From Spirochaetota bacterium (lineage in GTDB: Bacteria > Spirochaetota > Spirochaetia > Treponematales > UBA12059), in the NCBI GenBank assembly GCA_026398615.1, contig JAPLSN010000019.1:1-64000 (forward strand): 64,000 nucleotides of DNA, in the 5' to 3' direction. The position numbers were made by a program, and so were the translations under genes. Below, piece by piece: positions 13,740 to 61,963 of this stretch. How positions within the stretch are numbered: position 1 is the stretch's first letter; each line of letters begins with the position of its first letter. Below the pieces are notes generated by a model, which searched no databases, was not told the DNA's origin, and saw only the letters and a list, made by a program, of their open reading frames with translations.

Positions 13740-13769
13740 AAAGCGCGCTCCAGCCATCCTGAAAAAAAC

Positions 13770-13809
13770 GGCGCGGTAAAGGGTTCCTCCTTCGCCGCGC
13801 CATTTTTTC
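13770..13809. terminator. Bidirectional rho-independent terminator
   Basis: Stem GGCGCGG (13770-13776) with CCGCGCC (13795-13801), followed by ATTTTTT on the plus strand and preceded by GAAAAAAAC, which gives a T-run on the minus strand. It can end both the export operon and the convergent WHy-domain gene. Confidence 0.85.
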
Positions 13810-13847
13810 ACCCGATGGACGGGGGCGAAAAACATCCCCATCGATCC

Positions 13848-46465: not shown

Positions 46466-47888
46466 GCCCACCTCGCTGACCAGCCAGGAATGACCTGCGG
46501 AATTCACAATAATGGATCAGGCGCGCGATTGCCCGGATCGCGTCGCCGGGCTGGAAAAAAACGGGAATGCCCGCGGAAACCAGAAGGTCGATGGCAGAAA
46601 CCCCGGAGCTGCCGTCGGCGCATGACGCCGCGGTATTTCCTACCCAGACCACGACCACCGGCTTGCCCGATTCGTTCCGCACCGCGATGATGGCTCGCGC
46701 CGTATCGGTCTCGACCGGCCTCCGCGGGCTTTTGGCGAAGAGGAGGCCGATACAGTCGATTTCATCCGACTCGATGAACGGGAGCATCGAGTCGCGGATG
46801 ACGGAGCCCCGCATGGAATCACCCCGCAGATCGACGGGATTGAGGATGGGCTGGTATCCGGGGAGCATGTCATGATCCCTCAGCCGGCTGCACAGCGTTT
46901 CGGGGAAAGGCGGCGGCTCGATGCCCGCCATCGTGGCATGGTCGCCCGTCAGAGAACCGAGGCCGCCGGACTGCGTGATCCAGGCGATACGCCGGCTTGA
47001 AGCCGCGCCGCGGCTATCGGCAAGCAGGGAAACTGAAACCATGTCGTCGATATCGTCGACAAGAATGGCTCCGTATTGCCTGCAGACGGCCTCGAATACC
47101 CTGGCTCCGCCGGCAGCGGCCGCGGTATGGGTCGCGGCGAGCTTGATCCCGGCATCGGTCCGGCCCGCTTTGATGAGGACTACGGGTTTGCCTGCAGCGA
47201 GATTCAACTCGAGGGCGTGGATGAAAGCGCGGCCATCCTTGATGCTTTCCATGAAAGCCACCGCGACGGTGGTGCCCGGATCGGCAGCGAAAGACGCGAG
47301 CAGGTCTTCCGCGGTGATGTCCACCTGGTTGCCCACCGATACCAGATAGCGCATTCCCGCTCCCCGGGCCGCGAAGGAACCGTGCAGGGCCATCATGAGG
47401 GCGCCGCTCTGCGAGACGAAGGAAATGCCGCCGGAGCCGCAGGTTCCTGCAAGCCGCGTCGCCGTGATCCTCTTTGGGATATTGGCGAAACCGGCGCAAT
47501 TCGGCCCCAGTATCAGGATTTTCCCCGCGAAAGACTCGAGTTCTTTCTGGAAGGCCGAACCTTCCTCTCCTGCTTCCGCGAAGCCCGACGTTATGATGAC
47601 TGCCGCGGGAACACCCGCCGCGACGCAGTCGGCCAGAACCGACTTCACGTAGCGGCGATCGACGGTGATTATCGCCAGATCGGGGACGTTCGGAAGATCG
47701 CCGACCGATTTGAAACAGGCATGTCCGAAAACCGAGTCCCTGTTGGGATTGACCGGGAAAACCTCGACATCCGACGCCGCGAGACTCGTGAAGATCCCCG
47801 AAGGATAGACTCCCGACTCCGACGCGCCGATATGGGCGACGGATCGGGGGTTGAGCATGGTCTCTAGGGCGGCGGATCTGTCGGTCAT
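46449..47888 (-). CDS. ADP-forming acyl-CoA synthetase, CoA-binding (alpha) subunit
   Basis: 479 residues, the usual alpha length. CoA-binding Rossmann start SVAHIGASE, then the two succinyl-CoA-ligase-like domains: LGPNCAGFANI, FVSQSGALMM and the phosphohistidine region THTAAAAGG with His254. The enzyme interconverts acyl-CoA, ADP and Pi with acid, ATP and CoA; the acid is unknown. It starts four bases inside the end of the ARH gene (ATGA). Confidence 0.85.
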   Translation of the reverse strand: MTDRSAALETMLNPRSVAHIGASESGVYPSGIFTSLAASDVEVFPVNPNRDSVFGHACFKSVGDLPNVPDLAIITVDRRYVKSVLADCVAAGVPAAVIITSGFAEAGEEGSAFQKELESFAGKILILGPNCAGFANIPKRITATRLAGTCGSGGISFVSQSGALMMALHGSFAARGAGMRYLVSVGNQVDITAEDLLASFAADPGTTVAVAFMESIKDGRAFIHALELNLAAGKPVVLIKAGRTDAGIKLAATHTAAAAGGARVFEAVCRQYGAILVDDIDDMVSVSLLADSRGAASSRRIAWITQSGGLGSLTGDHATMAGIEPPPFPETLCSRLRDHDMLPGYQPILNPVDLRGDSMRGSVIRDSMLPFIESDEIDCIGLLFAKSPRRPVETDTARAIIAVRNESGKPVVVVWVGNTAASCADGSSGVSAIDLLVSAGIPVFFQPGDAIRAIARLIHYCEFRRSFLAGQRGGHAFLS

Positions 47889-48880
47889 CGCCAGGCTCCG
47901 CAGGACAGGGCGACAAGTTGGTCGGCAAGATCGAGCAGATCCCAGTCCTTGCTGAATTCGAGACAGACGCCGGAAGCGTGCCGGATCTGTCCGACCCATT
48001 TCGCTGGAATTGCATCGATGCCGTGAAGGGCGCCCGAAAGCGAGCAGACAAGGCCCGAGATGGTGTCGGCGTCGCGGCCGAAGTTGGCGCTCCAGAGCAG
48101 GCCACGCCTGAAATCGCCGCCGGTCAACCTGAAAATGGCATAGACCTGGGGGATCGCCTCGGCGGCCGTCGCGTGCTCGGGCGTCCAGAGTTCCGCGTGG
48201 AGGTCCTCGAACGCGACTTCGATATCCGGCTTTTCGTCGCAGATGCGCATCGCGATGCCCATGGCGCGCGCCATCCATGAATCCTTGGGAAGGACTTTCA
48301 TCCCCGCTTCGATGATTTCCCCGACGGTGCCGTTCGCCATCGCCACGGCAACGCTCGCCGCCACGGCCTGGGCCGCCCAGATGCCGTCCCTGTCGTGGCT
48401 GATGCAGGCGTCGATCGCCGCGAGCCTTGCCGCGCCCTCGGGATCCCCGGCCCTGAAAATGCCTACCGGGCTTATCCGCATGGCCGCTCCGTCGTCGGTG
48501 TTCATGACGTTGTATTTCCCGGATTCAGGCGGCATGAGACCGCGTCCGATATTCTCGATCGCGCCATAGAGAGGCCGACCCGCGCGCTTTTTCGCCCCGC
48601 CTCGGTCGAGAATGTACTTTTTCCACGCCGCGCAGACATCGTCCGGGGAAGGCTCGCCCGAGTTGTCGAGGAGACAGCAGGCGGTCAGGATGCCGAATTC
48701 GGTGTCATCCGTGCTTTTGGCGTCGGGATACATGTTCGTGATGACTCCGTACCTGGAGCGGTATTCCTGGCTGCGGCCGGTGTCGCCCATCGCGTCCCCG
48801 ACGCCGAGCCCCGCCAGGCAGCCGCGCGCCTTCGACTCGTACAGCTTCCTGTCGGCCAGCAGTTCGCTTCTCGGGATCAT
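47885..48880 (-). CDS. ADP-ribosylglycohydrolase family protein, intact metal site
   Basis: 331 residues. Both Mg2+ motifs of the ARH/DraG family are present: STDDTEFG (57-60) and GRDADTISGL (Asp270, Asp272). The family removes ADP-ribose from proteins or small molecules and includes crystallin-like and YegU-type enzymes found in sugar and nucleoside catabolic operons with PfkB kinases. In this locus (LacI regulator, sugar importer, ribokinase relic) the substrate is more likely an imported glycoside than a modified protein. It follows the LacI gene after three bases. Confidence 0.88.
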   Translation of the reverse strand: MIPRSELLADRKLYESKARGCLAGLGVGDAMGDTGRSQEYRSRYGVITNMYPDAKSTDDTEFGILTACCLLDNSGEPSPDDVCAAWKKYILDRGGAKKRAGRPLYGAIENIGRGLMPPESGKYNVMNTDDGAAMRISPVGIFRAGDPEGAARLAAIDACISHDRDGIWAAQAVAASVAVAMANGTVGEIIEAGMKVLPKDSWMARAMGIAMRICDEKPDIEVAFEDLHAELWTPEHATAAEAIPQVYAIFRLTGGDFRRGLLWSANFGRDADTISGLVCSLSGALHGIDAIPAKWVGQIRHASGVCLEFSKDWDLLDLADQLVALSCGAWR

Positions 48881-48883
48881 GGG

Positions 48884-49906
48884 TCAATTCCTTATTTCGA
48901 CGACGCTGTCGCGGATGACCAGCGTGCCGGGATAGAGATGCTTTTCGGGAGTCCGCGAAGGATCCCCGATCCTTTTCATCAGAAGCTCCGCCGCCTTCTT
49001 GCCCATCTCGGCACGGGGCTTGCGGATGGTGGTGAGTGCCGGCCAGGTCAGGGCTGCGATGGGGATGTCGTCCATCCCGATTACGGAAATGTCCCTGCCC
49101 GGCTCGACTCCCCGCGCCCGCAGGGTGTTCTGCAGGGAAATCGCGAGGATGTCGTTTCCGCAGAGCACGGCGCTGATCCTGTCCTTCCAGCCCGGCACCG
49201 CGAGGATATCGCCTGCAAGCCTCTCGCCCCCTTCCGCCGAGAGGTGTGCCGTGAACACGAGGTCCGGATCCTTCGCCAGCCCTTTGGCTTCCATGAAGTC
49301 CGTGTAGGCGGTGAACCGCCGGGAAAGGAAACGTTCGCTTCCGGTTTCGCTCGTAACCACGGCGATGCGGCGGTGTCCCGCGTCGTAAAGGTATTGGAGA
49401 GCCAGCGTGGCCGCCTGGTACGTCGCTGTCCCGACGGTGTCGATCTGCGTGAGTTCGCTGCGCTCTCCGACAAGCACCGCCGGGATTCCCGCTTCAAGGA
49501 TAAGGTCGATATCGTCCGTGACGCTGTTGATTATCAGTCCGTCGAAGCGTCCCGTCCGGAACAGTCTGAGATAGGAGAGTTCCCGTTCCTCGCTCCAGTC
49601 CGTATTCCCTACCACGACGGAATATCCCTCCGGTTCGAGCCTGTCCTGCACGGCGCGCACGATTTCCGACCAGAAGGGGTTGGCGATGTCGGGGACAACC
49701 AGGAGCGCGAGGTATGACTTCGAGTTCCGCAGGCCGGCCGCGAAGGTATTGCGCGTGTACCCGAGCTCGCTGATGGCGGCGTTGACGGCGTCCTTGGCCT
49801 TCCTGCTCACGGACCCGCCCGTGTCCGAGATCACGCGCGATACGGTGCTTTTGGAGACGCCTGCGAGACGGCCGACCTCATAGATGTCCAGTTTTGGCTT
49901 TTTCAT
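48884..49906 (-). CDS. LacI-family transcriptional regulator
   Basis: 340 residues. Helix-turn-helix at 8-27 (EVGRLAGVSKSTVSRVIS), hinge helix near 50-58 (RNTFAAGLRN), then a periplasmic-binding-protein-like sensor domain (LVVPDIANPFWSEIVRAVQ, IGMDDIPIAALTWPALTTI). It is the first gene of the locus it should control. A perfect 14-bp palindrome with central CG lies five bases before its ATG, which points to autoregulation and repression of the whole catabolic operon. The ligand is probably the sugar taken up by the linked importer. Confidence 0.92.
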   Translation of the reverse strand: MKKPKLDIYEVGRLAGVSKSTVSRVISDTGGSVSRKAKDAVNAAISELGYTRNTFAAGLRNSKSYLALLVVPDIANPFWSEIVRAVQDRLEPEGYSVVVGNTDWSEERELSYLRLFRTGRFDGLIINSVTDDIDLILEAGIPAVLVGERSELTQIDTVGTATYQAATLALQYLYDAGHRRIAVVTSETGSERFLSRRFTAYTDFMEAKGLAKDPDLVFTAHLSAEGGERLAGDILAVPGWKDRISAVLCGNDILAISLQNTLRARGVEPGRDISVIGMDDIPIAALTWPALTTIRKPRAEMGKKAAELLMKRIGDPSRTPEKHLYPGTLVIRDSVVEIRN

Positions 49907-49910
49907 AAAA

Positions 49911-49924
49911 TGGGAACGTTCCCA
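49911..49924. promoter_or_regulatory. LacI-type operator
   Basis: TGGGAACGTTCCCA, a perfect palindrome with the central CpG typical of LacI-family sites. It overlaps the expected transcription start of the promoter at 49931-49959. Confidence 0.75.
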
Positions 49925-49930
49925 ATAAGG

Positions 49931-49959
49931 ACAGTACCATGATTACGGTGATTCCGCAA
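49931..49959 (-). promoter_or_regulatory. Promoter of the LacI-controlled catabolic operon
   Basis: On the minus strand TTGCGG (49959-49954), 17 bases, TACTGT (49936-49931). The operator lies six bases downstream of the -10 element. Confidence 0.5.
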
Positions 49960-50228
49960 GAAGAAAAGTTTTTTATTTCATCGGACAGACGCCCGCAATG
50001 GCGCGGTCAAGGAGGGACCTCATCCTCGAGATCATGGAGCGTACTCGAGTTCCCGGGGGGCGTGCGCCCGGTTCTTGCGTAGCCGTGTCGGCCGCTTTTC
50101 CGTCATGCCGAATGCAGTCCAGAGCCCCCGGTGAACGAAACGTTGAATGCCGTCCCGACGACGGACACGCATCACCTGACCGTGGAATGACGCTGCCGCC
50201 CTGCTTCCGTGGTTCAACATGCTTTTGC
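49960..50228. other. Intergenic stretch between two divergent operons
   Basis: Between the lacI promoter and the promoter of the ROK-kinase operon I see no convincing gene, RNA or terminator. Its base composition is close to that of the coding DNA, so it may hold a decayed gene, but no family motif can be read in any frame. Confidence 0.5.
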
Positions 50229-50257
50229 TTGCCAGAGTCAGGCGATTCGACTACAAC
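50229..50257 (+). promoter_or_regulatory. Promoter of the ROK-SIS-HAD-PfkB operon, probably leaderless
   Basis: TTGCCA (50229-50234), 17 bases, TACAAC (50252-50257). Six bases separate it from ATG 50264, and there is no ribosome binding site. Confidence 0.5.
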
Positions 50258-50263
50258 TAGCCC

Positions 50264-51205
50264 ATGGACAGCGTACTCGCCGTCGACCTCGGCGGCACCA
50301 AGACCGCAGTTGGCGTAGTCTCTTCCGCGGGTCTCGTCCTCGCGAGGGAAACCATTCCAACGCCGCTCGGCGATCCGACAACCCTCATCGCCGCCATCGT
50401 TGCCCTGGCGCGCAGCGTGCTCCATCGCGCAGGACCCGTCCGCGCCATGGGCATGTCCCTCCCGGGCATCGTCGACCGGGCCGCCGGCAGCCTCCGCGCG
50501 TCCCCCTCCTCGGGCTGGACGAACGTGCCCTTCGCGCGCATGGCGGGCGAGGCTCTCTGTCTCCCCGTCCGGGCGGACAACGACGTGAACGCCTGCGCCT
50601 GGGCGGAAGCATGCTTCGGGGCCGGCCGCGGGCTCGACTGTTTCTTCTGGCTCCAGGTCAGCACGGGCATCGGCGGGGCCGTGGTCGCGGGCGGCCGCGT
50701 GCTTGACGGCGCGCATTCCATGGCGGGCGAGATCGGCCATCTCGTCGTCAATCCCGGGGGCGCGACCTGCGGCTGCGGGCACCGCGGCTGCCTCGAGGCC
50801 GAGGCAGCGGGACCCGCGTGGCGGCGCAAGGCGCTCCTGCGGCTCGACGGACTCACCCCGGGAGCCGGTGGTTTCCTCGTCAGCCTCTCGCGCGGGGAAG
50901 TGGACGCGAAGACCGTGGCAGCGGGCGCGCGCGCAGGCGATCCCCTCTGCCGCGAAGTCGTCCGCGAAGTCGGTTCGATGATCGCGCGCGGAATCGCGGC
51001 AGTTACCAACATCCTCGACCCCCAGGCCATTTTCGTCGGAGGGGGTGTCGCCGCCGCACTGGATCTCCTTCAGCCTTTCATCGTGGAAGAATCCGCGAGC
51101 CTTGTCTTCGCGGCCTCGGGTCGTTCCTCCCTGTTCCGGTCCAGTTCCCTCGGCTACGACGCTGCACTCGTCGGAGCCGCCGCACTCGCCCTTCACCCTG
51201 TCTGA
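50264..51205 (+). CDS. ROK-family sugar kinase
   Basis: 313 residues without a DNA-binding domain, so an enzyme. The ATP phosphate loop is VDLGGTKTAVG (7-17) and the active-site Asp is in RADNDVNACAW. The ROK zinc motif is GEIGHLVV...CGCGHRGCLE. It phosphorylates a hexose or N-acetyl-hexosamine; the sugar is unknown. It opens a five-gene operon (17-base gap to the next gene, then overlaps) of sugar-phosphate enzymes. Confidence 0.88.
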   Translation: MDSVLAVDLGGTKTAVGVVSSAGLVLARETIPTPLGDPTTLIAAIVALARSVLHRAGPVRAMGMSLPGIVDRAAGSLRASPSSGWTNVPFARMAGEALCLPVRADNDVNACAWAEACFGAGRGLDCFFWLQVSTGIGGAVVAGGRVLDGAHSMAGEIGHLVVNPGGATCGCGHRGCLEAEAAGPAWRRKALLRLDGLTPGAGGFLVSLSRGEVDAKTVAAGARAGDPLCREVVREVGSMIARGIAAVTNILDPQAIFVGGGVAAALDLLQPFIVEESASLVFAASGRSSLFRSSSLGYDAALVGAAALALHPV

Positions 51206-51222
51206 AGCCAAGGAAGGTTTCC

Positions 51223-51822
51223 ATGCAAAGGGATTTCACCGCCGACATCGAATCCTATTTCACAAGGCTCAAGGCAACCCTCGATCGCATATCGCGCGAA
51301 GAGCTCAACGCTTTCATGAACCTGCTGCTGGATGCGCTCGAAGCCGGCAGGTACGTCTTCATCATGGGCAACGGCGGCTCGGGCGCTACCGCCTCCCATT
51401 TCGCCGTGGATTTCAACAAGGGGCTTTCCTATCAGAAAGCCCGGCGTTTCCGCTTCATCTGCCTGAACGACAATGCTCCCACCCTCACCGCCTATGCGAA
51501 CGACGTGGGCTACGACGAGGTGTTCGTCGAACCCTTGCGCAACTTCCTCGGCTCAGGCGATCTGGTTATCGGGATATCCGGTACGGGAAATTCACGCAAC
51601 GTCCTCAAGGCTATCGAGTTCGCCAAGGCAAAAGGCGCAGTGACGGTGGGCTTGACCGGTTACGACGGCGGGGCGCTCAGGGCACTCGCGCGCCACTGCG
51701 TCCACATCCCGATCGCGGACATGCAGGTGACCGAGGACCTCCACATGGTGGTGGACCACCTGATTTACGCCGTCCTCGGGAAAGCCCTTCCCGCCGAAAG
51801 CCCGGGTGCGGATCGTGGCTGA
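51223..51822 (+). CDS. SIS-domain sugar-phosphate isomerase, GmhA-like
   Basis: 199 residues. SIS core: FIMGNGGSGATASHFAVDF (phosphate loop), LNDNAPTLTAYANDVGYDEVF, GISGTGNSRNV, and TEDLHMVVDHLI with the metal/catalytic Glu and His of sedoheptulose-7-phosphate isomerase. AAGGAAGG precedes the ATG. GmhA turns sedoheptulose 7-phosphate into D-glycero-D-manno-heptose 7-phosphate; here the exact sugar is inferred from the neighbours. Confidence 0.82.
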   Translation: MQRDFTADIESYFTRLKATLDRISREELNAFMNLLLDALEAGRYVFIMGNGGSGATASHFAVDFNKGLSYQKARRFRFICLNDNAPTLTAYANDVGYDEVFVEPLRNFLGSGDLVIGISGTGNSRNVLKAIEFAKAKGAVTVGLTGYDGGALRALARHCVHIPIADMQVTEDLHMVVDHLIYAVLGKALPAESPGADRG

Positions 51823-52720
51823 ACGCGACTACAGCCGCGCCTGGCCGATGCCCGCAAGAACCAGTTTCATTCCCGGGACGTCCATCGAGCTGGTTCGGCC
51901 TCCCAGCCTGTCCGAGGCTCCCCGGCACGTCCTCTTCGACTTCGACGGCACCCTGAGCCTGATACGCGAGGGATGGATGGAGATCATGGTGCCCATGATG
52001 GTCCGCACCCTCGCTCCCTTCGCGCGGGCGGACGAGTCGGAAGAGTCGCTGCGCGCCCTCGTGGGGAATTTCGTCGCCGAGCTCACCGGCAAGCAGACGG
52101 TCTACCAGATGATCCGCCTGGCCCGGGAGGTGGAAGCCCGCGGGGGCAAGGCCGCCGATCCGCTGGACTACAAGGCGGAGTACCACGAGCTCCTGATGGC
52201 GCGCATCGCGAGCAGGAGGGAAGGCCTGGCGGCGGGCAGCGTCGCGCCCGCGAGCATGCTGGTTCCCGGTTCGCTCGAACTCCTCGCGCTCCTGCAGGGT
52301 CGCGGCGTCGCCATCTACATCGCGTCCGGCACGGATGAAAAATACGTGCTGGAGGAGGCCCGCCTCCTCGGCCTGGACGGATACGCGCCGGGCGCCATCT
52401 ACGGCGCCCGGGCCGACCACGCGAACTTCTCCAAGGAGCTCGTCATACGGCGCATACTCGGGGAGAACCGCGTCGAGGGGGCCTCGCTGCTCGCCTTCGG
52501 CGACGGCTACGTGGAGATCGCCGACTGCAAGGCCGCGGGAGGCACCGCGGTAGCGGTCGCCAGCGACGAGGCAGGACGCTCGGGCAAGCCTGACGCATGG
52601 AAACGCGAGCGGCTCATCGGAGCCGGCGCGGACATCGTCATCCCCGACTACGCCTGCGGACGCGCCCTCGTCGATTACCTTTGGTCAGGCGGCGGCGGGA
52701 TCGGCCCGGCTGGACCATGA
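51806..52720 (+). CDS. HAD-family phosphatase
   Basis: 304 residues from GTG 51806 (GTG 51815 is also possible; neither has a good ribosome binding site, as expected for coupling by the 17-base overlap). HAD motif I is LFDFDGTLS (Asp45, Asp47), motif II ASGT, motif III Lys near KELVIRR, and motif IV FGDGYVEI. The large helical cap (about 60-150) indicates a C1-cap enzyme for a small sugar phosphate. In a heptose-type route it could play the role of GmhB. Confidence 0.82.
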   Translation: MRIVAERDYSRAWPMPARTSFIPGTSIELVRPPSLSEAPRHVLFDFDGTLSLIREGWMEIMVPMMVRTLAPFARADESEESLRALVGNFVAELTGKQTVYQMIRLAREVEARGGKAADPLDYKAEYHELLMARIASRREGLAAGSVAPASMLVPGSLELLALLQGRGVAIYIASGTDEKYVLEEARLLGLDGYAPGAIYGARADHANFSKELVIRRILGENRVEGASLLAFGDGYVEIADCKAAGGTAVAVASDEAGRSGKPDAWKRERLIGAGADIVIPDYACGRALVDYLWSGGGGIGPAGP

Positions 52721-53772
52721 TCGACGCGTTGCGTGATTTCGATCGTCGCCGCCTTCGCGAACTCACCGACGCCTTCGGCTCGCTCAGGGTGGCCGTCCTG
52801 GGAGACTTTTTCCTCGACAAGTACATCGAGGTCGACCCCTCGCTCGCCGAAATATCCCTGGAAACCGGCAGGATCGCCCACCAGGCGGTCGCCGTCCGCC
52901 ACAGCCCGGGAGCGGCGGGAACCGTCGTCAACAACCTTGCCGCCCTGGGAACCGGTACGCTGCTCGCCCTGGGCTTTTCGGGCGATGACGGCGAGGGCTA
53001 CGAACTCCGCAAGGACCTCTCGATGCTCGGCGTGGATATCGTCCATCTTCATACCGATTCAGGGCGCAGAACCCCGACATACATGAAGCCGCGCGACATC
53101 GATCGCCCGGGCCTGGATGGCGAACACAGCCGGTACGACATGAAAAACCGCACGTCCACCCCGCCCGCGATCGAGGAAATCCTCATCGATTCCCTCGATG
53201 AGGTCCTGGGCAGGATCGACGTCCTCGTGGTGATGGACCAGGTCGAAGCCGAGGGCTGCGGCGCGGTCACACACCGGATCGTCAATGCCCTGGCCGGACG
53301 CCTTCCCCGATTTCCCGACCTCATCGCCTGGGCCGACTCGCGCCGCAGGATCATGTCCTTCAGGGGTCTCATGCTGAAGATGAACCAGTTCGAGATGGCC
53401 GGTGTGCACGATCCGCTGCCCGGAGCCCTGATTCCCGACGAGACCATCGCGGCAGGGTTGCCTTCGCTCGAGGCGAAAATCGGTGCCGGCGTATTCGTCA
53501 CCGTGGCCGATCGGGGTGTCTGGGTGGGCGGCACCCACCCCGTGCTCATCCCCGCGCTGCGCATCGACGGGCCGGTGGACCCCACCGGGGCAGGCGACTC
53601 CTTCACGGCGGGAACGGTGCTCGCGCTCGCCGCCGGGGCATCCCCCGCGGAGGCGGCGCTCGCGGGAAACCTCGTCGCGTCGGTTACCGTGCGCCAGCTC
53701 GGGACGACGGGAAGCGCCCGGCCCGAAGGACTCTTCGCTGCCCTCGACCTCTGGAAGGAGCAAAACCCATGA
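52717..53772 (+). CDS. PfkB-family carbohydrate kinase, HldE/RfaE kinase-domain-like
   Basis: 351 residues; ATG 52717 overlaps the HAD stop (ATGA). The opening VLGDFFLDKYIEVDP and the GAAGTVVNNLAALG motif resemble the kinase half of HldE (RfaE1), and the catalytic Asp is in VDPTGAGDSFTAG. HldE kinases make heptose 1,7-bisphosphate. There is no nucleotidyltransferase domain fused to it or nearby. Confidence 0.82.
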   Translation: MIDALRDFDRRRLRELTDAFGSLRVAVLGDFFLDKYIEVDPSLAEISLETGRIAHQAVAVRHSPGAAGTVVNNLAALGTGTLLALGFSGDDGEGYELRKDLSMLGVDIVHLHTDSGRRTPTYMKPRDIDRPGLDGEHSRYDMKNRTSTPPAIEEILIDSLDEVLGRIDVLVVMDQVEAEGCGAVTHRIVNALAGRLPRFPDLIAWADSRRRIMSFRGLMLKMNQFEMAGVHDPLPGALIPDETIAAGLPSLEAKIGAGVFVTVADRGVWVGGTHPVLIPALRIDGPVDPTGAGDSFTAGTVLALAAGASPAEAALAGNLVASVTVRQLGTTGSARPEGLFAALDLWKEQNP

Positions 53773-54896
53773 AGCGACTCTTCGACCGCGATTCAATATC
53801 GGTACTCCCCCTTTCCTGGCGCGTGAACAAGCTCGACGCACAGCGCGCGCTCGTCGATCCGGATTCGTACGCTGCGACACTTTCCCCGGAAGCCGCCGGG
53901 GATGTCGAGGCGGCAGCATCCGAGATCCGGGCTTCGCGCGGCCGCGGTGCTCCGGTCATCCTCGCTTTCGGCGCGCACTCGATCAAGAACGGCCTCTCCC
54001 GCGTCATGCGCCGCCTCATGGACGGCGGCTGGGTGACGCACTTCGCGACGAACGGAGCGGGCATAATCCACGACTGGGAATTCTCCTACCAGGGCCGGAC
54101 GGGAGAGGATGTCAGGCGCTATGTCGCCCAAGGCCAGTTCGGCATCTGGGAGGAAACGGGTGCCTTCATCAACATGGCCATCGCCGTCGGCGCCTGGCGC
54201 GGCCTGGGCTACGGCGAATCCGTGGGCGCCATGATAGCGGAGGACGGTCTGACCATACCGCCGGACTCCGAACTCGCCGCCGCGATGCGCGACGGAGCCG
54301 CCGGGGACGCGGACGAAGCGCTCATCCTTAAGGCGGCGGCGGCGGCCGACCTGCGGGCTCTCCTGCTTCGCGCGGGCATCGATCCCGGGTTCCTGCACAT
54401 CGATCACCCTTACAAGGAATATGGCCTCACCGCGGCCGCCTGGAAAGCCGGACTGCCATTTACCGTCCATCCCATGTTCGGCCACGACATCATCTACACC
54501 CATCCCCTGAACCGGGGCTCGCCGATCGGCAGGACGGCCGAACCGGATTTCCTTTCCTTCGTGGAATCGGTATCGCGCCTGGAAGGCGGGGTCTACCTTT
54601 CTGTCGGCTCGGCGGTGATGTCTCCGATGATCTTCGAGAAGGCGCTGTCGATGGCACGCAATGCAGCCCGTTCGGGCGGCGCGAAGATCGAGGATTTTTC
54701 CATCCATGTCGTGGATCTCGCGAAGTCAGCATGGGATTGGACTCAGGAAGACGAGCCGCCCCAGGACGATCCGGCCTACTACCTGCGTTTCTGCAAGACG
54801 TTCAGCCGCATGGGCGCAAGGATGAGCTACGCGAGCGCGGACAATCGCAGCTGGCTCGTCGCGCTTCTTCGCGCCATCGAACGTCGAGGCGCGTGA
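53769..54896 (+). CDS. Deoxyhypusine-synthase-like protein of unknown substrate
   Basis: 375 residues; the ATG overlaps the kinase stop by four bases. The segment GAHSIKNGLSRVMRRLMDG, then THFATNGAGIIHDWE and GQFGIWEETGAFIN follows the pattern of bacterial deoxyhypusine-synthase-family proteins (Rossmann-like NAD fold with a NGAxxIHD motif). Bacteria lack eIF5A, and these homologues have various or unknown roles. Its strict linkage to sugar-phosphate enzymes suggests an NAD-dependent step on a sugar or polyamine. The assignment comes from remembered motif patterns and needs a structure-based search. Confidence 0.5.
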   Translation: MKRLFDRDSISVLPLSWRVNKLDAQRALVDPDSYAATLSPEAAGDVEAAASEIRASRGRGAPVILAFGAHSIKNGLSRVMRRLMDGGWVTHFATNGAGIIHDWEFSYQGRTGEDVRRYVAQGQFGIWEETGAFINMAIAVGAWRGLGYGESVGAMIAEDGLTIPPDSELAAAMRDGAAGDADEALILKAAAAADLRALLLRAGIDPGFLHIDHPYKEYGLTAAAWKAGLPFTVHPMFGHDIIYTHPLNRGSPIGRTAEPDFLSFVESVSRLEGGVYLSVGSAVMSPMIFEKALSMARNAARSGGAKIEDFSIHVVDLAKSAWDWTQEDEPPQDDPAYYLRFCKTFSRMGARMSYASADNRSWLVALLRAIERRGA

Positions 54897-54899
54897 CCA

Positions 54900-55985
54900 T
54901 CATGCCAGTTGTATGGGCTGTCCCCTGGCCGCGGAAGCGTAGACGGCGTCGACGATTCGCATGAGTTTCAGCGCCTGGTCGGGTGTGTTGAGGGGAGCTT
55001 CCTTGCCCTCGATGGCGGCAACGAAATTCCGGGCGGATCGGAGCCTGCCCATGGATTCATCCTGGGGAAGGATCAGGGAGCGATTCACGTGCCGCCCGTG
55101 CTCCACGGTGAAAAGCTCGCAGCGGTCCACGCTCGTGGCGTCCAGGCCGTCGCGGCCGAACACGCGCTCGATGAGCCCACCCGCTTTCGTGCCCTGGAAA
55201 TTGACCGAAACCACCTCGCGCTCGGTCATCTCGGCCCAGGAACTGCGCAGGAAAAGGACCTGTCCCGTCTTGAAGCGCACGAAGCCGTGACAGGCGGACT
55301 CGACATCGGTGGCGCCGCCCGCGACGTCCGGTATGCCCCAGGGCCCCCTGAAGGCCCTGTCGTCGATGAAGTCACGGAAAGTCTGAGCGAGCACGAAGTC
55401 GGGCTCGGGATAGTCCATGAAGTAGATGGCAAGATCGAGCATATGTAGCAGGTCTATGACGGGACCTCCGCCCGACATTCCCTTTGTCGTGAACCATCCG
55501 CCGAAGCCGGGTATCCCGGAACGCCGGGCCCAGACGGCCTGCGCGGAATTGATTTTCCCCACCTCTCCGGAGCGGATATATTCCATGAGGGCATATGCCT
55601 CGGGGCGGGCGCGATTGTTGAAGTTGAATTGGAGAAGCTTCCCCGCTTTCCCGGCCTCGTCCACCATGGTCTGCGTTTCGACGGCATTCAGCGCGGGCGG
55701 CTTTTCACAGAAAACATGCTTCCCCGCCCGAAGCGCCTTCACGGCAATGGGCATGTGGAACCTGTTCGGCGTGATGATCGATACTGCGTCGATGTCCTTG
55801 CGCTTCGCAAGCATTTCATCTTCATCCGCGTAAGTTTCTTTCACGGAATACGTCTTCGATGCCTTGGCCCTGGCATCCGGAACCGGTTCCGCCAGGGCGA
55901 CGATCTCGGCTCCGCCCGAGCGGAATCCCGGTATGTGGTAGCGGGCCATCCCTCCAGCCCCGATGATTCCGATTTTCACGCTCAT
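54900..55985 (-). CDS. Gfo/Idh/MocA-family sugar oxidoreductase
   Basis: 361 residues from ATG 55985 (AAGGAG six bases upstream). N-terminal Rossmann GIIGAGGMARYH, then SIITPNRFH and the hallmark CEKPPA (Lys in EKP). The C-terminal beta sheet has GGGPVIDLLHMLDLA with the catalytic Asp/His region. It is NAD(P)-dependent and oxidises or epimerises a sugar or inositol. It is the last gene of the ribose-type ABC operon, separated from the binding protein by an inverted-repeat element, and converges with the DHS-like gene. Confidence 0.9.
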   Translation of the reverse strand: MSVKIGIIGAGGMARYHIPGFRSGGAEIVALAEPVPDARAKASKTYSVKETYADEDEMLAKRKDIDAVSIITPNRFHMPIAVKALRAGKHVFCEKPPALNAVETQTMVDEAGKAGKLLQFNFNNRARPEAYALMEYIRSGEVGKINSAQAVWARRSGIPGFGGWFTTKGMSGGGPVIDLLHMLDLAIYFMDYPEPDFVLAQTFRDFIDDRAFRGPWGIPDVAGGATDVESACHGFVRFKTGQVLFLRSSWAEMTEREVVSVNFQGTKAGGLIERVFGRDGLDATSVDRCELFTVEHGRHVNRSLILPQDESMGRLRSARNFVAAIEGKEAPLNTPDQALKLMRIVDAVYASAARGQPIQLA

Positions 55986-56017
55986 ACGCGGCTCCTTCGT
56001 AAAATAAAAGAGGGTCA

Positions 56018-56203
56018 GCCACCGAGGCGCAGAGGCACGGAGAGGAGAGGAAAGGAAAGGAACGCAGAAGGATACGGAAGGAACGGATCGAACGGATGGC
56101 CGGGAATCCTGCCGACTCGATCCAGCCACCCTCATCCCCGCTCCACTCCCTCATCCCTCCGTTCCCCCCCCCTTCTTCCTCCGTGTCTCCGTTCCTCCGT
56201 GGC
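56018..56203. repeat. 186-bp element with imperfect terminal inverted repeats, purine-rich left arm
   Basis: The 25 bases at 56018-56042 (GCCACCGAGGCGCAGAGGCA...) match the reverse complement of 56203-56179 (GCCACGGAGGAACGGAGACA...) at 20 of 25 positions. The inside continues as AGG/AAGG purine runs on the left and pyrimidine runs (a C-run at 56164-56172) on the right, so one strand can fold into a long imperfect hairpin. It contains no gene and sits between the Gfo/Idh gene and rbsB. It looks like a dispersed intergenic repeat or miniature mobile element. Confidence 0.7.
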
Positions 56204-56241: not shown

Positions 56242-57216
56242 TCAGAAGGGAGCCTCGGGGACGTAGAAGTCCTTCGCGTTCGCCTTGGTCACGAGTTCCG
56301 AGGGAAGGATTATCCTGCGGGGAAGCGCGCGCACCTGGTAGATGTTCGGGTTGAGCTTCTCGCCCCTGACGCCGATGACCGCGTAGGAGATGGAGGTCGC
56401 GATGACCGAGGGGGAATAGGTGACGTCCGCCTTCACGAGCGGGTTCGAGTCGTCCATGATCCCCTTGATCACGTCCTTGAGGCATCCGCCGCCGAGGAAG
56501 AACTTGATGTCCTTGCGGCCGGATTCCTTGTAAGCCTGCATGGCCCCGAGCATCATGTCGTCGTCGGCGGTATAGACCGCGTCGATGGCCTTGTACTTCT
56601 GCAGGTAGTTTTCCATGACCGAGAGCGACTTCTGGCGGTTCCAGTCGCCGGGCTGGACATCGAGCAGGGTGATGTTCGGGTACTTCTTCACGACTTCCTT
56701 GATCGTGTCGGTCCGGATGGTGTCGATGGGACAGGGCGTGCCTGAGATGAGGAGGAGGTTGCCCTTGAAGCTCATCTGCTTGGCCAGCCACTCCATGCCC
56801 TTCCGTGTGTAGGCTTCGTCGTCGTTGGTGATGTAGATGTCGTAGATGCCTTCCTTGGACACTCCGCGGTCGAGGACGACCACGTATACGCCCTGGTTGA
56901 AGGCTTTCTCCACCACGCTGGTAACCGAGGTGTCATGCGGGAACACGACTATCGCGTCGACCTTCTTCACGAGGAGGTCCTCGATGTCGGACACCTGCTG
57001 GTTCACGTTGCCCGAGAACTTGAGCTCGATCTGGACGTTCTTGTCCCTCTTCTCCCAGTCGGTCTTGGCGCGCGTCGCCCACCAGTTCGCGTTGGCCATC
57101 CAGCCGTGGGTCGCGCTGGGCATGGACACGCCGACCTTGTAGACCTTCGTGGCTTGTGCGAATCCCAGGGACGCGACCATCGTCAGTACGAGGAAGGCCA
57201 CCAGTACTTTCTTCAT
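56242..57216 (-). CDS. rbsB: Sugar ABC transporter substrate-binding protein, RbsB-like
   Basis: 324 residues. Signal peptide about 1-20 (ASLGFAQA). Family 2/4 periplasmic-binding fold: YKVGVSMPSATHGWMANANWW, DAIVVFPHDTSVTSVVEKAF, VVLDRGVS, DAVYTADDDMMLGAMQAY. It binds a pentose- or inositol-type sugar for the RbsA/RbsC pair encoded just upstream. An unusual 120-base hairpin region precedes it. Confidence 0.88.
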   Translation of the reverse strand: MKKVLVAFLVLTMVASLGFAQATKVYKVGVSMPSATHGWMANANWWATRAKTDWEKRDKNVQIELKFSGNVNQQVSDIEDLLVKKVDAIVVFPHDTSVTSVVEKAFNQGVYVVVLDRGVSKEGIYDIYITNDDEAYTRKGMEWLAKQMSFKGNLLLISGTPCPIDTIRTDTIKEVVKKYPNITLLDVQPGDWNRQKSLSVMENYLQKYKAIDAVYTADDDMMLGAMQAYKESGRKDIKFFLGGGCLKDVIKGIMDDSNPLVKADVTYSPSVIATSISYAVIGVRGEKLNPNIYQVRALPRRIILPSELVTKANAKDFYVPEAPF

Positions 57217-57336: not shown

Positions 57337-58332
57337 CTACTGTTTCTGCCTCTGTATGTACACCGAGGCGATGATCACCACGCCCTTGACCACACCCTGG
57401 AGATAGGGCGAAAGTCCGGCCATGTTGAGCATGTTCTGTATTATCTGGAGCATGAACACGCCGACCACGGTTCCCCAGATGGAACCGCGGCCGCCCGACA
57501 TCGCGGTGCCGCCGATGATCACGGCGGCAATCGCGTCGAGCTCGAAACCCAGACCGAAGTTGGGCGTGCTCACCGTGTTGAAGCGTGCGGCCAGGAGCAC
57601 GGCCGAGGCCGCGACCACGAGCCCGTTGATCGCGTAGGCCCAGAAGCGCACGGATCCGACGCGCACGGCGGAATACTGCGCGACCCTCGCGTTGGAACCG
57701 ACGGCGCAGAGATAGCGGCCATACCGCGTGTTGTCGAGCACGAATCCCAGGATCGTCGCGAGGACGAAAAGCGTCGCGACGGGCAGCGGCAGGGAGAGCA
57801 CGCCCACCCCGATGTCGAGCGAGAAAAGCTTCGCCATCCCGAGCTCGCCGAAGTTCTGGCTGTGCGAGGCGAATTCCCCGGCGTTCGCCATCTGCAGGCT
57901 CACGTAGCGGAAGATGGACATCGTGCCGAGCGTCACGATGAAGGGCACGATCTTGCCAAGCGTGATGAGAAGCCCGTTCAGCGCGCCGGCCAGCAACCCG
58001 ATCATCGCCATGACGACGATGCCGCCCGCGATGGCCAGGGTCTCGTTCCCGCCGGACGCCTGCAGGATCCAGTTCATGAAGAGCACGCCGCATGACGCGA
58101 CGAATGCCGCCATGGCGCCGACTGACAGGTCGATTCCGCCCGAGATGATGACCAGGGTCATGCCAAGCGCGATGATGCCCGCATACGAAGCCTGCCTCAT
58201 GACGTTGACCAGGTTCTCGATCTGGAGGAAGTAGGGCCGGCCTATGATCGCGGCCAGGATGAACAGGGTGCCCAGCGCGATGAGCGAACCGTATTTCTCG
58301 AGATCGATCTTCCCTGCTGCCGTCGCGTTCAC
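57337..58332 (-). CDS. rbsC: Sugar ABC transporter permease, RbsC-like
   Basis: 331 residues from GTG 58332 (GAGGAGG seven bases upstream; GTGA overlap with the RbsA stop). Eight to ten helices; IALGMTLVIISGGIDLSVGAM and GTAMSGGRGSIWGTVVGVFML are the two signatures of BPD_transp_2 permeases for ribose, xylose and related sugars. Confidence 0.9.
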   Translation of the reverse strand: MNATAAGKIDLEKYGSLIALGTLFILAAIIGRPYFLQIENLVNVMRQASYAGIIALGMTLVIISGGIDLSVGAMAAFVASCGVLFMNWILQASGGNETLAIAGGIVVMAMIGLLAGALNGLLITLGKIVPFIVTLGTMSIFRYVSLQMANAGEFASHSQNFGELGMAKLFSLDIGVGVLSLPLPVATLFVLATILGFVLDNTRYGRYLCAVGSNARVAQYSAVRVGSVRFWAYAINGLVVAASAVLLAARFNTVSTPNFGLGFELDAIAAVIIGGTAMSGGRGSIWGTVVGVFMLQIIQNMLNMAGLSPYLQGVVKGVVIIASVYIQRQKQ

Positions 58333-59852
58333 GATGCGGCCTCCTCGTGTACGCCGGTGGCGTAGAACATGATTTCCTCTTCGTCGATGCCGTCGCCCTC
58401 GAGGGTGCCGGCCACCTTGCCGTCGCGCATGACGACGACCCGGTTGCACATGCCGATGATCTCCTCGAGCTCCGAGGAGATGAAGATGCAGGAGATGCCC
58501 TTCCTGGCGAGGTCGTTGATGAAAAGGTAGATCTCGTGCTTGGCGGAGACGTCGACGCCCCGCGTGGGCTCGTCGACGATGAGTATCTCCGGCTCCGTGT
58601 CTATGGATTTCGCGAGGGAAACTTTCTGCTGGTTGCCTCCCGAGAGGTTCTCGAGCCGCTTGTCGAGGCTCTCGGTCTTGATATGGAACGAATCGACGTA
58701 GCCCTGCACCTTGCCCCGCTCGCGCTTCTTGTCGATGAGGCGGAAGAGGGAACGGCAGTAATCCGCGAGGGATACGAGGGTGACGTTGCGCGTAACCGTG
58801 AAGCCGGTGATGATGCCCGCGCCCTGGCGGTCTTCCGAGAGGTAGGATATGCCGGCGGCCACGGCGTCAGCGGGCTCGTCTATCGTCAGCTCCTTGCCGT
58901 CCTTCAGGATGCTGCCCGAGCTTTTCTTGCGAAGTCCCAGTATCGTCTCGGCGATTTCGGTGCGGCCGGCCCCCACGAGCCCCGCGAGTCCCAGGATCTC
59001 GCCCTTGCGGAGGCGGAAGGATATGTTCTCGACGACGCCTGGAACCGTGAGGCCGCGGACTTCGAACACCGTCTCTCCGTCCGGCTCGAACTTCGGGGGG
59101 AAGATGGATCCGAGTTCGCGGCCGACCATTTTCTGCGCCATCTCGAGGAAGGAAATCTCCGATGTCGGCCCGTCGTGGACGAGGTCGCCGTCGCGGAGGA
59201 TCACGACCCGGTCGCAGAGGGCTTTCACCTCCTTCAACTTGTGTGAAATGTAGACGATCGTCATTCCCCCGGTGCGGAGCTTCCTGACCAGCCTGAAGAG
59301 TATCTCTATCTCGTACTTGGTGAGCATGGTCGTGGGCTCGTCCATTATGAGAACCTGGGCTTCAAAGGCCAGCGCCTTGCAGATCTCGACCATCTGCTTC
59401 TCGGCCGCGCTCATGGCCTCTATCCGCGCCTCGGGGTCGATGGTCACGTTCAGCTGGGCAAGGAGGGAACGCGTGCGCTCCTTCATCGCAACCTTGTCCA
59501 GGAAGCCGGCCTTCGTGCGCAGTTCCGAGCCGAGGAAGACGTTGTTGTAGACCGGCAGGTCGCGGATGAGGTTGAACTCCTGCGGCACCAGGCTGATGCC
59601 CAGCGCACGCGCGTCTATCGGCGTCGCGATGCGCACCGTCTCGCCCCGCATGATGACGCGGCCCGAGGTCGGCTGGTAGATGCCGCTCATGATCTTCATG
59701 AGCGTGCTCTTGCCCGCCCCGTTCTCGCCGATGATCCCCAGGATCTCGCCTCGGCGGATGTCGAGGTCTATGTCCTTGAGCACCGGCACACCGCCGAAGT
59801 CCTTGTTGATGCGCTCGGCGCGCAGAATGGTCTCGCCCATCGCGTCGCTCAC
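58329..59852 (-). CDS. rbsA: Sugar ABC transporter ATPase, RbsA-like, two ABC domains
   Basis: 507 residues from GTG 59852, which overlaps the isomerase stop (GTGA); ATG 59840 is an alternative. Domain 1 has GENGAGKST and a degenerate signature (MSAAEKQMVEI) but an intact DEPTT; domain 2 lacks a clean Walker A (GLVGAGRTE) but has LSGGNQQKVSLAK and DEPTRGVD. This asymmetric pattern is normal for RbsA/XylG/MglA proteins, which energise CUT2 sugar importers. Confidence 0.92.
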   Translation of the reverse strand: MSDAMGETILRAERINKDFGGVPVLKDIDLDIRRGEILGIIGENGAGKSTLMKIMSGIYQPTSGRVIMRGETVRIATPIDARALGISLVPQEFNLIRDLPVYNNVFLGSELRTKAGFLDKVAMKERTRSLLAQLNVTIDPEARIEAMSAAEKQMVEICKALAFEAQVLIMDEPTTMLTKYEIEILFRLVRKLRTGGMTIVYISHKLKEVKALCDRVVILRDGDLVHDGPTSEISFLEMAQKMVGRELGSIFPPKFEPDGETVFEVRGLTVPGVVENISFRLRKGEILGLAGLVGAGRTEIAETILGLRKKSSGSILKDGKELTIDEPADAVAAGISYLSEDRQGAGIITGFTVTRNVTLVSLADYCRSLFRLIDKKRERGKVQGYVDSFHIKTESLDKRLENLSGGNQQKVSLAKSIDTEPEILIVDEPTRGVDVSAKHEIYLFINDLARKGISCIFISSELEEIIGMCNRVVVMRDGKVAGTLEGDGIDEEEIMFYATGVHEEAAS

Positions 59853-60742
59853 TTTTTCATCGCCGCGTCGAAAGCCAGGGCGGAGGGCGCGAAATCCAGA
59901 TCCCGCACCAGGGCGAGCGCCTCGCGCGCGCCGAACTCGCGATCCATGCCGACATCCTCCCATTCGACCGAGAGCGGGCCGGAATAACCCGCAGCGTTGA
60001 GCTCCCGGACGATCGCGTCGAAGTCCACGTCGCCGTGTCCGGGTGAAACGAAGTTCCAGCCGCGCCGCAGGTCGCCGAAGGGCAGGTGCGAGCCGAGTAT
60101 GCCCGCACGGCCATCGAGCCTGACCGCCACGTCCTTCATGTGCACGTGGTAGATCCTGTCGGCGAAGTCCCGGATGAACAGGTCGGGCTTGAAAGCTATC
60201 TCCGTCGGGTGCACTTCGAGGGCGAAACGCACCCCGCAGGCGTCGAATTCGTCGAAGATGGGCGTCCAGATCCGCACGACCTCGGCGTAGGCCTCCTCGA
60301 TCATCGCCTCCGTCGTCTGGGGAAAGGAGTACCACCAGCGCCAGATCGGCGAACCCATGAAGCAGGTGACTACCTTGCAGCCCATCGCCTTCGCGGCGCG
60401 GGCCGTCAGCTTCATCTCCTCGACAGCCCAGGCCTTGATTGCCTCGGGCTTTCCCTTGACTTCAGGCGGCGCGAATCCGTCCAGGCGCGGATCCCAAGGG
60501 TCGGCGACGCATTGTCCCGCCAGGTGGGCGGAGAGAGCCCATGCCTTGAGCCCGTACTTCGCGAGAAGGGCCTTCTTCGCCTCGACATACGAGGTATCGG
60601 TCGCGGCCTTGTGCACGTCCATGTGATCACCCCAGCAGGCTATCTCGATGCCGTCATAGCCGAATGAAGCCACCTTGGCGCAGAGCTCCTCGAAATGAAG
60701 GTCGGCCCACTGGCCGGAAACCAGGGTTATCGGGCGGGACAT
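59849..60742 (-). CDS. Sugar-phosphate isomerase/epimerase (xylose-isomerase-like TIM barrel)
   Basis: 297 residues from ATG 60742 (GAGGAGG upstream). AP-endonuclease-2-type TIM barrel with metal-ligand positions in ALEVHPTEI, HVHMKD, PGHGDVDF and SVEWED. The family includes inosose, tagatose and hydroxypyruvate isomerases. It overlaps rbsA by four bases and belongs to the sugar catabolic operon downstream of the dehydrogenase. Confidence 0.88.
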   Translation of the reverse strand: MSRPITLVSGQWADLHFEELCAKVASFGYDGIEIACWGDHMDVHKAATDTSYVEAKKALLAKYGLKAWALSAHLAGQCVADPWDPRLDGFAPPEVKGKPEAIKAWAVEEMKLTARAAKAMGCKVVTCFMGSPIWRWWYSFPQTTEAMIEEAYAEVVRIWTPIFDEFDACGVRFALEVHPTEIAFKPDLFIRDFADRIYHVHMKDVAVRLDGRAGILGSHLPFGDLRRGWNFVSPGHGDVDFDAIVRELNAAGYSGPLSVEWEDVGMDREFGAREALALVRDLDFAPSALAFDAAMKK

Positions 60743-60752
60743 CGCATCCTCC

Positions 60753-60977
60753 TCAAACATCGATCCGGGCGGAAATCTTTCGCGAGCTTTCGACGCAGGC
60801 GGCGACAAGGCGGAGCCCGGCGATGCCGGCGTCCTGGCCGGGACAGTCCAGGTCAACCCCATCGGGCGCGATGCCCGCCTTCGTTTTGGCGAGAGTGCCG
60901 GCGAAGGCCTTGTAGATGTCGCGGGAGAAGGCTCCGGCTCCGCCGCCCACCATGCCGTACCTGAGGATGGCGTTCAC
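60753..60977 (-). pseudogene. Gfo/Idh/MocA oxidoreductase with large in-frame internal deletion
   Basis: A 74-codon frame opens with the NAD-binding start of the family (ILRYGMVGGGAGAF) and passes directly to its extreme C-terminus (IYKAFAGTLAKTKAG, then DGVDLDCPGQDAGIAGLRLVAACVESSRK). About 300 middle residues, including the EKP motif and the whole catalytic sheet, are missing. The ATG overlaps the dehydrogenase stop (ATGA), so the remnant may still be translated and still couples the operon. Confidence 0.72.
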
Positions 60978-61963
60978 CGTTCGGTCCCGAACTCGATGAC
61001 GCCCTTGATGTATCCGCCCGTCCTGTCGAGCGCGGCGGCATAGAGTCCTTCCGCCTTGCCGAACGGCGCGACGTGGGTTACCAGACCCTCATTGCTGATG
61101 GCGCCCGCGGCCATGAGCGCGATCGCGCGCGGGAAGAGCTCGTCGAAGGATGGGTTCATCTGGGGTTGTATGTTGAGTATCCGCAGGCCGTCGACATGCC
61201 AACGCTCGAGATCGAACTCGTGCCGATGGTGGTGCCAGGCGAAATTCTCGATGATCGCGTAGGGTCTGGCCAGTTTGAAGGCCAGTTCGAGGGCCGGATC
61301 CGAGCCTGCGGTTTCGATGACGACATCGCAGGAGCGAATATGCCCCGCGGGGGATTCGCCCGGAACCGTCTGGACGAAATCCCATCCGCCCATGCCGCTG
61401 CCGGACTTCCTGGCCAGCTCCAGCCGCCTCCCGTCGGGCTCGAAGACGGTAACCTTTCCCGCGAGCGTGCGCCTCAGGGCTTGCAGCATGAGCATTCCCA
61501 TGTAGCCGGCTCCGACAAGGGCGACGGAATCGCCGGGCTGGATGCCCGAGTACATGATGCCGTTCACGACACAGGCGACCGGCTCGACGATCCACTTTTC
61601 CACGGGGATGGCGGAAGGCTCGGGCATGACCGAGACCTTGTTCCACGGACGGACGGCATGCCGGGCCATGAGGCCGCCGCCCCGCTCGTCGATCGGAAGT
61701 TCGTGGCAGGCAACGCGCTGGCCGATCTGGATGCCGCTGGCGAGGGAACCTCGCCGGATCACGCGGCCGATGCCTTCATGCCCGGCCCTGAAGGGGTAGG
61801 CATGAAATTGGCCGAACCCGCCCGAATAAGCGAGTATGTCCCAGCCACAGACGCCGCAGGCCTCCATCTCCACGAGCACTTCATGGGCTTCCGGTTCCGG
61901 GATCTCGACGCTTTTGATCTCGATATTTCGCTTGCCCAGATACCATAGAGCCTCGGTTTTCAT
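60974..61963 (-). CDS. Zinc-type alcohol/polyol dehydrogenase (MDR family)
   Basis: 329 residues. Catalytic-zinc region ACGVCGWDILAYSG and GHEGIGRV, and the third ligand area VEPVACVVNG; the NAD Rossmann loop is ALVGAGYMGMLML. The structural four-Cys zinc lobe is missing. It oxidises a sugar alcohol or sugar, as fits the first enzyme of the ribose-type sugar operon. A consensus promoter lies upstream, and a ROK repressor gene is transcribed the other way. Confidence 0.88.
   Translation of the reverse strand: MKTEALWYLGKRNIEIKSVEIPEPEAHEVLVEMEACGVCGWDILAYSGGFGQFHAYPFRAGHEGIGRVIRRGSLASGIQIGQRVACHELPIDERGGGLMARHAVRPWNKVSVMPEPSAIPVEKWIVEPVACVVNGIMYSGIQPGDSVALVGAGYMGMLMLQALRRTLAGKVTVFEPDGRRLELARKSGSGMGGWDFVQTVPGESPAGHIRSCDVVIETAGSDPALELAFKLARPYAIIENFAWHHHRHEFDLERWHVDGLRILNIQPQMNPSFDELFPRAIALMAAGAISNEGLVTHVAPFGKAEGLYAAALDRTGGYIKGVIEFGTER

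Follow-up and report, generated by a model that had tools for sequence, protein, structure and literature searches.

A candidate sugar-phosphate module built around a GSU2086-family protein in a sugar-uptake locus of a Spirochaetota genome

The stretch of DNA analysed here, hereafter called the window, comprises positions 1 to 64,000 of contig JAPLSN010000019.1 from a Spirochaetota bacterium (assembly GCA_026398615.1), whose genome of 3.38 Mb in 43 contigs is 99.08% complete. The feature under study is an operon of five open reading frames (ORFs), all on the plus strand, which an earlier note on this DNA had placed correctly and had described as almost continuously packed, as the gaps of +17, -17, -4 and -4 bases, in order, confirm. 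It encodes a ROK-family sugar kinase of 313 amino acids (aa) (50264..51205; PF00480, E 2e-64), a GmhA-like sugar-phosphate isomerase with a SIS domain (51223..51822, 199 aa; SIS_2, 8.8e-17), a HAD phosphatase with a helical cap (51806..52720, 304 aa; PF00702, 1.8e-10; the GTG start was assigned mechanically and the true start is uncertain), a PfkB-family kinase akin to HldA and to domain I of HldE (52717..53772, 351 aa; PF00294, 7.6e-23) and a GSU2086-family protein with the predicted fold of deoxyhypusine synthase (DHS) and ornithine cyclodeaminase (OCD) (53769..54896, 375 aa).

The last protein, whose gene is present in one copy in the host genome, belongs to the uncharacterised NCBIfam family NF052581, 'GSU2086 family protein' (315.9 bits, where 250 are required), exceeds in length the 301 positions of that model and matches no Pfam family. 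AlphaFold2 prediction on 49 family members (pLDDT 93.1, pTM 0.91) gave a fold whose top Foldseek matches in the PDB are the DHS of Pyrococcus horikoshii (E 3.3e-6) and ArgZ/AgrE proteins. VIA-align produced a near tie between the OCD domain of AgrE (Z 18.4, 220 residues, 3.3 Å, 18% identity) and the P. horikoshii DHS (Z 17.3, 250 residues, 3.9 Å, 12% identity). In a sequence-profile search, ArgZ was found with an E-value of 4.7e-5 versus 0.015 for a DHS, hhalign returned 94% against both the DHS and the OCD family, and the family member in genome G051 (surveyed genomes and loci bear G and L numbers) weakly matches the DHS-like family PF01916 (E 6e-5). Fold scores, profiles, hhalign and this last match together make homology to both families likely, as judged from sequences and models. 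The comparison of predicted structure with DHS that the earlier note had called for thus did find similarity, so that this outcome, named there as a refutation if negative, did not go against the note, and the resemblance holds at the level of the fold and weakly in sequence; the equally close relation to OCD had been overlooked.

The window protein and ArgZ/AgrE have an H-D-x-E stretch in common, and in a permissive hhalign alignment Lys343, Arg347 and Asp358 pair with a Lys, an Arg and an Asp conserved without exception among five OCD proteins. The catalytic lysine of DHS (Lys329 in the human enzyme) was not placed on the window protein by hhalign, and this protein does not contain SWGK, a motif of the DHS proteins examined. 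Of 69 family members, 65 have a Lys at position 343 and the other four (L034-L037) an Asn; these four belong to a short type that has neither a HAD nor a PfkB gene nearby, in genomes (G163, G147, G133 and G075) that lack the HAD subfamily of the window altogether. Despite the fold and aligned residues that it shares with AgrE/ArgZ, the window protein matches neither PF21570 nor the LOR/SDH region PF04455, both of which are present in the ArgZ-like OCD protein of L026, and it sits among sugar genes.

What can be said of the other four enzymes points towards sugar phosphates. The ROK kinase is a member of its family (PF00480, 218.4 bits, cut-off 22.9), and its top NCBIfam model is ROK glucokinase at 182 bits, under the cut-off of 260. 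The closest PDB matches of the SIS protein are phosphoheptose isomerases, although its score with the GmhA equivalog TIGR00441 is only 107 bits, below 209.45. SIS proteins that accompany a fused kinase-phosphatase mostly have a His, Glu, Gln, His pattern, which we take to be the GmhA metal site, and the window protein and its closer relatives have His, Asp, Glu, His at those positions. The PfkB protein reaches 98.5 bits with the HldE kinase-domain model TIGR02198, below the 345 required, and the profile of its family retrieves the heptose-7-phosphate kinase 4e84 first from the PDB (E 2.5e-29) and a fructokinase second (5.2e-23). For the HAD protein, no GmhB model is found among NCBIfam matches at E <= 0.01, and its AlphaFold2 model (pLDDT 90.8), which has the helical cap, finds its nearest folds in AlnB phosphatase, beta-phosphoglucomutase and similar capped HADs, with nothing named GmhB.

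Set against the ADP-heptose pathway (GmhA, HldE, GmhB, HldD), the isomerase and the PfkB kinase therefore have GmhA and HldA as their closest solved relatives, whereas the scores stay under the equivalog cut-offs and the phosphatase is of another type. The claim that the middle three activities are those of ADP-heptose synthesis was thus too strong, the likeness standing for nearest relatives and failing for family membership; the analogy is useful and falls short of membership. The nucleotidyltransferase that had been reported missing from the operon is in fact missing from the entire genome, since the HldC adenylyltransferase (TIGR02199) has no match there, and no second GmhA is present either, so that ADP-heptose is not the product. 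ADP-heptose synthesis in the host, for which an analogous biosynthetic route had been suggested, was rejected on these grounds together with the scores for GmhA, HldE and GmhB.

The distribution of the genes speaks for a functional unit. Across 392 Spirochaetota genomes, the GSU2086 model exceeds its cut-off of 250 bits in 23 (28 at E <= 1e-5), and the HAD subfamily, traced with a profile (A7, E <= 1e-25) built from neighbours of GSU2086-type genes, is found in 17 genomes, all of them inside the 23, and in none of the other 369. The hypergeometric P of this overlap is 4e-25 with genomes treated as independent, kinship lowering the true support. Five of the 28 genomes have hits below the family cut-off only; in the four that were read (G256 was not read through), these are ArgZ-like OCD proteins according to Pfam (L026) or alignment (L027, L028 and L030), as is a second weak hit in G224 (L032). 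A GSU2086-type gene that stands alone is often accompanied at a distance, 18 of 30 such genomes carrying the HAD gene elsewhere, while in G144 a PfkB-HAD fusion and the GSU2086-type gene lie on separate contigs. Among the 16 HAD regions examined (15 of those 18 plus G144), PfkB, SIS, ROK, LacI, transporters or GH38 lie alongside in some (L156, L157, L161 and L162). One genome, G310, has both a short and a long GSU2086 type (L033 and L054) and a single HAD copy, which adjoins the short one.

Relatives extend far beyond the phylum. A scan of the genomes of 84,980 species yielded 576, of which the best 80, a sample in which nearer kin are over-represented, come from Spirochaetota, Planctomycetota, Kiritimatiellota, Lentisphaerota, Verrucomicrobiota, Bacteroidota, Hydrogenedentota, Calditrichota, Nitrospirota, Elusimicrobiota, KSB1 and one metagenome-assembled genome (MAG) of Bacillota; plasmid records hold only two relatives and viral contigs none. 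We laid out 106 loci (L001, L002, L033-L135 and the window), or 105 without L129, which has no labelled GSU2086 frame, and PfkB and HAD are a single fused protein in 45 of the 105 (checked with Pfam on L106, from Mariniphaga anaerophila), an arrangement that had escaped the earlier note. In a set of 96 loci, from which L038, L042, L043, L046, L049, L050, L057, L103 and L115, mostly copies or near-copies, were dropped, genes found nearby are HAD (57), PfkB (55), SIS (34), ROK (26), LacI (24), Gfo/Idh (23) and GlcNAc-2-epimerase-type (22). The gene directly adjoining is HAD or PfkB in 57 of the 96, and HAD, PfkB, SIS and ROK all lie within 8 ORFs in 19. These counts, obtained with profiles from first-round clusters and our own ORF picking, are lower bounds: the ROK gene of the window itself was displaced by an overlapping frame, and two genomes with the full set (that of L042/L057 and that of L043) were dropped altogether, the frame picker having merged their ORFs. 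At other loci, GH38 and GH92 alpha-mannosidases are common, as are sodium symporters and transporters of MalEFG type. Pfam tallies of 77 unlabelled neighbours, and of 21 genes next to the short genes of lipopolysaccharide (LPS) type, revealed no further family exceeding two members. On a tree of 64 members, which omits ten rows of the same kind (copies, merged frames), the window groups with other loci in which kinase and phosphatase are separate; loci of like arrangement cluster together (0 of 200 shuffles as low), yet 16 changes are needed. The survey of neighbourhoods that the earlier note had proposed therefore shows that the set recurs across distant bacteria and, on the evidence of gene order, it is a real module and no accident. 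No description of it was found in a literature search confined to open-licence papers, which makes this a weak absence.

In the window, the operon lies beside uptake genes that, like the regulator, had gone unnoticed. A LacI-family regulator (48884..49906, minus strand; PF00356, 4.2e-15, plus a periplasmic-binding-like domain) is divergent from it upstream. Downstream, all on the minus strand, are a Gfo/Idh/MocA oxidoreductase convergent with the operon (54900..56135; PF01408, 1.8e-26), the sugar-binding protein of a CUT2-type ABC transporter (56242..57216; PF13407, 1.3e-41), an ABC permease (57337..58449; a mechanical ORF of uncertain start), a sugar ABC transporter ATPase (58329..59840; the mechanical ORF runs to 60335 and the start was estimated from homologues of 503-511 aa), an IolE-like TIM barrel of xylose-isomerase type (59849..60862; PF01261, 3.9e-34; 39.8 bits with TIGR04379 iolE, far under the cut-off of 290) and a zinc-type alcohol/polyol dehydrogenase (60974..61963; PF08240, 1e-13; top NCBIfam model IolM, 89 bits, cut-off 450). 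Transporter and core are kept together in L039, L042 and L043, where the binding protein, permease and ATPase have homologues of 85-90%, 77-78% and 72-80% identity, and in the last two of these loci copies of the oxidoreductase that are 69-71% identical adjoin the same operon; the layout is similar in L033 and in the Chloroflexota plasmid L002. The locus is thus a LacI-flanked, regulated sugar-uptake cluster. With respect to its 72%-identical homologue in L042, the IolE-like gene of the window lacks 32 residues in frame after 'VHPTEIAF', which may be a true deletion or an assembly artefact.

The reading that we favour, and which may well be correct although we hold it short of probable, is that the five genes form a sugar-phosphate module within this regulated uptake locus, in which a manno-configured C6 or C7 sugar phosphate undergoes a redox-neutral step dependent on nicotinamide adenine dinucleotide (NAD). 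It is part of this reading, and held just as tentatively, that the module would take no part in ADP-heptose or LPS synthesis in the host. The ROK kinase would phosphorylate the imported sugar at its terminal carbon, and the SIS enzyme would interconvert aldose and ketose phosphates in the manner of GmhA. The HldA-like PfkB enzyme would then put a phosphate on C1 and the capped HAD would take off the terminal one, amounting to a net move of phosphate to C1. The GSU2086-type enzyme would hold NAD and would oxidise and re-reduce a manno-configured C6 or C7 sugar phosphate, most likely in an epimerisation or isomerisation with Lys343 in the active site. OCD is a redox-neutral NAD enzyme. DHS oxidises its substrate with NAD, cleaves it, passes through an imine bound to a lysine and ends with a re-reduction (PMC7226451). 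Since both fold relatives are redox-neutral NAD enzymes, a redox-neutral epimerase or isomerase is the simplest role that matches.

A second context for the family is provided by Geobacter sulfurreducens, in which GSU2086 lies, by locus number, between hldE (GSU2085) and gmhA (GSU2087), and insertions in hldE, GSU2086 and gmhA caused similar defects in electrode transposon sequencing (-3.1, -3.2 and -3.7; PMC5585712). Neighbours of gmhA and hldE type are thus found there as in the window, whereas the window has no adenylyltransferase, and a capped HAD, a ROK kinase and uptake genes take the place of the surface-sugar cluster. A GmhA-like isomerase, an HldA-like kinase and the GSU2086-type protein are common to both contexts, from which we infer a single chemistry acting on manno-configured sugar phosphates; one lineage would use it for surface sugars, the other within sugar-uptake loci. 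On gene content, then, the module appears to be a widely distributed variant of heptose-type sugar-phosphate metabolism, centred on an NAD-fold family that is uncharacterised. A widespread family without a known function is now tied to a defined set of partners, kinase-phosphatase fusion included, which brings its chemistry within reach of assays on four or five purified proteins. Should the protein prove to act on sugar phosphates, carbohydrates would be added to the polyamines and ornithine on which the matched relatives of its fold act, and the part played by GSU2086 when Geobacter grows on electrodes would gain an explanation.

Several observations weigh against this proposal. Every enzyme step is assigned by homology, and the SIS, HAD and PfkB proteins all fall under the equivalog cut-offs or outside the models for GmhA, GmhB and HldE. 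A phosphatase acting after a kinase is more suggestive of synthesis than of catabolism, an awkward fit with an uptake locus. The host genome lacks any gene of GlcNAc-2-epimerase type and matches GH38 only marginally, so that the term 'manno' rests on the relatives of the enzymes. The HAD subfamily is absent from 6 of the 23 genomes with the GSU2086-type gene, and 12 of the 30 in which this gene stands alone show no HAD (these are MAGs of unestablished completeness). Contexts also vary, with alpha-mannosidases and GlcNAc-2-epimerase-type genes in many loci and other genes elsewhere: the KSB1 locus L076 (50-6635) has uxaE, uxaC, a KDG-kinase-like and a 6PGD-type gene beside GSU2086, PfkB-HAD and SIS; in five loci of Hydrogenedentota type (L069, L119, L121, L122 and L130), a protein of about 880 aa, labelled alanyl-tRNA-synthetase-like (alaS) from reading the sequence and not from a search, is encoded near the GSU2086-like gene; and in L089 and L112, on contigs of L046 and L038, that gene directly follows an argJ-type gene. 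The last two are Spirochaetia genomes without the HAD gene, an odd placement given the kinship with OCD.

Plain catabolism, which we regard as unlikely, would be one alternative: ROK and SIS would convert an imported hexose, for example mannose, to fructose 6-phosphate for an ordinary PfkB kinase, with the HAD and GSU2086-type proteins trimming side products. ROK and SIS are often adjacent, and LacI, ABC and SSS transporters, GH38/GH92 alpha-mannosidases and GlcNAc-2-epimerase-type genes are common neighbours, in accord with this scenario. However, the strongest link in the survey is between HAD and the GSU2086-type protein and not between ROK and SIS, and proteins so tightly linked are unlikely accessories; the PfkB profile, moreover, is nearest to HldA, six orders of E-value ahead of fructokinase.

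A bolder proposal, which we consider improbable, takes the DHS kinship literally and has NAD oxidise the ring of a sugar 1-phosphate, the phosphate leave, a nucleophile add and NADH reduce the product to a glycoside or deoxy sugar. DHS itself oxidises its substrate, cleaves it, links a fragment to lysine and re-reduces it (PMC7226451), the module is predicted to yield a sugar 1-phosphate that no nucleotidyltransferase follows, and Lys343 is kept in the types with kinase and phosphatase and replaced by Asn in L034-L037, where neither is nearby. There is no known product or acceptor, however, and a similar fold does not fix the chemistry. Were this long shot to prove right, such an oxidise-eliminate-add-reduce sequence would be an NAD-driven, nucleotide-free route to glycosides or deoxy sugars in Spirochaetota, PVC phyla, Bacteroidota and others.

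That heptose from this operon goes into a surface glycan, by a route of ADP- or GDP-heptose type with the nucleotidyltransferase encoded elsewhere, is a more remote prospect. It would be in line with the position of GSU2086 in Geobacter and with a relative on a Solidesulfovibrio plasmid (L001), which lies in a surface-sugar cluster between a cytidylyltransferase-PfkB protein and a SIS protein. It is hard to reconcile with the absence of an HldC domain and of a second GmhA from a 99%-complete genome, with the LacI and sugar-uptake genes that flank the operon and with a phosphatase unlike GmhB. In the Solidesulfovibrio protein (12441-13967), near which genes of pseudaminic-acid type are found, the cytidylyltransferase domain comes first and PfkB second, the reverse of the order in HldE.

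It is very doubtful that the last protein is an OCD-like amino-acid enzyme with sugar neighbours by chance: AgrE/ArgZ do rank first by sequence profile (E 4.7e-5) and by Z, and the gene adjoins argJ in two genomes, yet the LOR/SDH N-terminal domain of OCD proteins is missing and family and sugar neighbours recur jointly across many phyla. Least credible of all is that the protein works on polyamines as a genuine deoxyhypusine or homospermidine synthase. The DHS fold and the weak PF01916 match of one relative would agree with this, but the host genome offers no PF01916 match at E <= 0.001 and the window protein no SWGK motif, while PF01916 proteins are separate ones, found in 11 of the 392 genomes (L136-L138, L141-L148), only two of which also carry the GSU2086-type gene. 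Polyamine chemistry was rejected for the host on this basis, and the sugar-polyamine conjugate once suggested is left unsupported, no polyamine gene having been seen to adjoin the operon.

As to control of the proposed sugar-phosphate module, the operon had been placed behind one promoter, but a sigma-70 scan of 49700-55200 found none; visible instead are the divergent LacI gene and, just before it, the perfect 14-base palindrome TGGGAACGTTCCCA (49911..49924), a candidate LacI operator. It is the only copy in the 3.38-Mb genome, one mismatch being allowed, so that no second copy ties the minus-strand genes to the same regulator, and it is absent from 147 of 148 loci. Directly downstream of the LacI gene lies a gene of the ADP-ribosylglycohydrolase family (47885-48880, minus strand; PF03747, E 6.2e-46).

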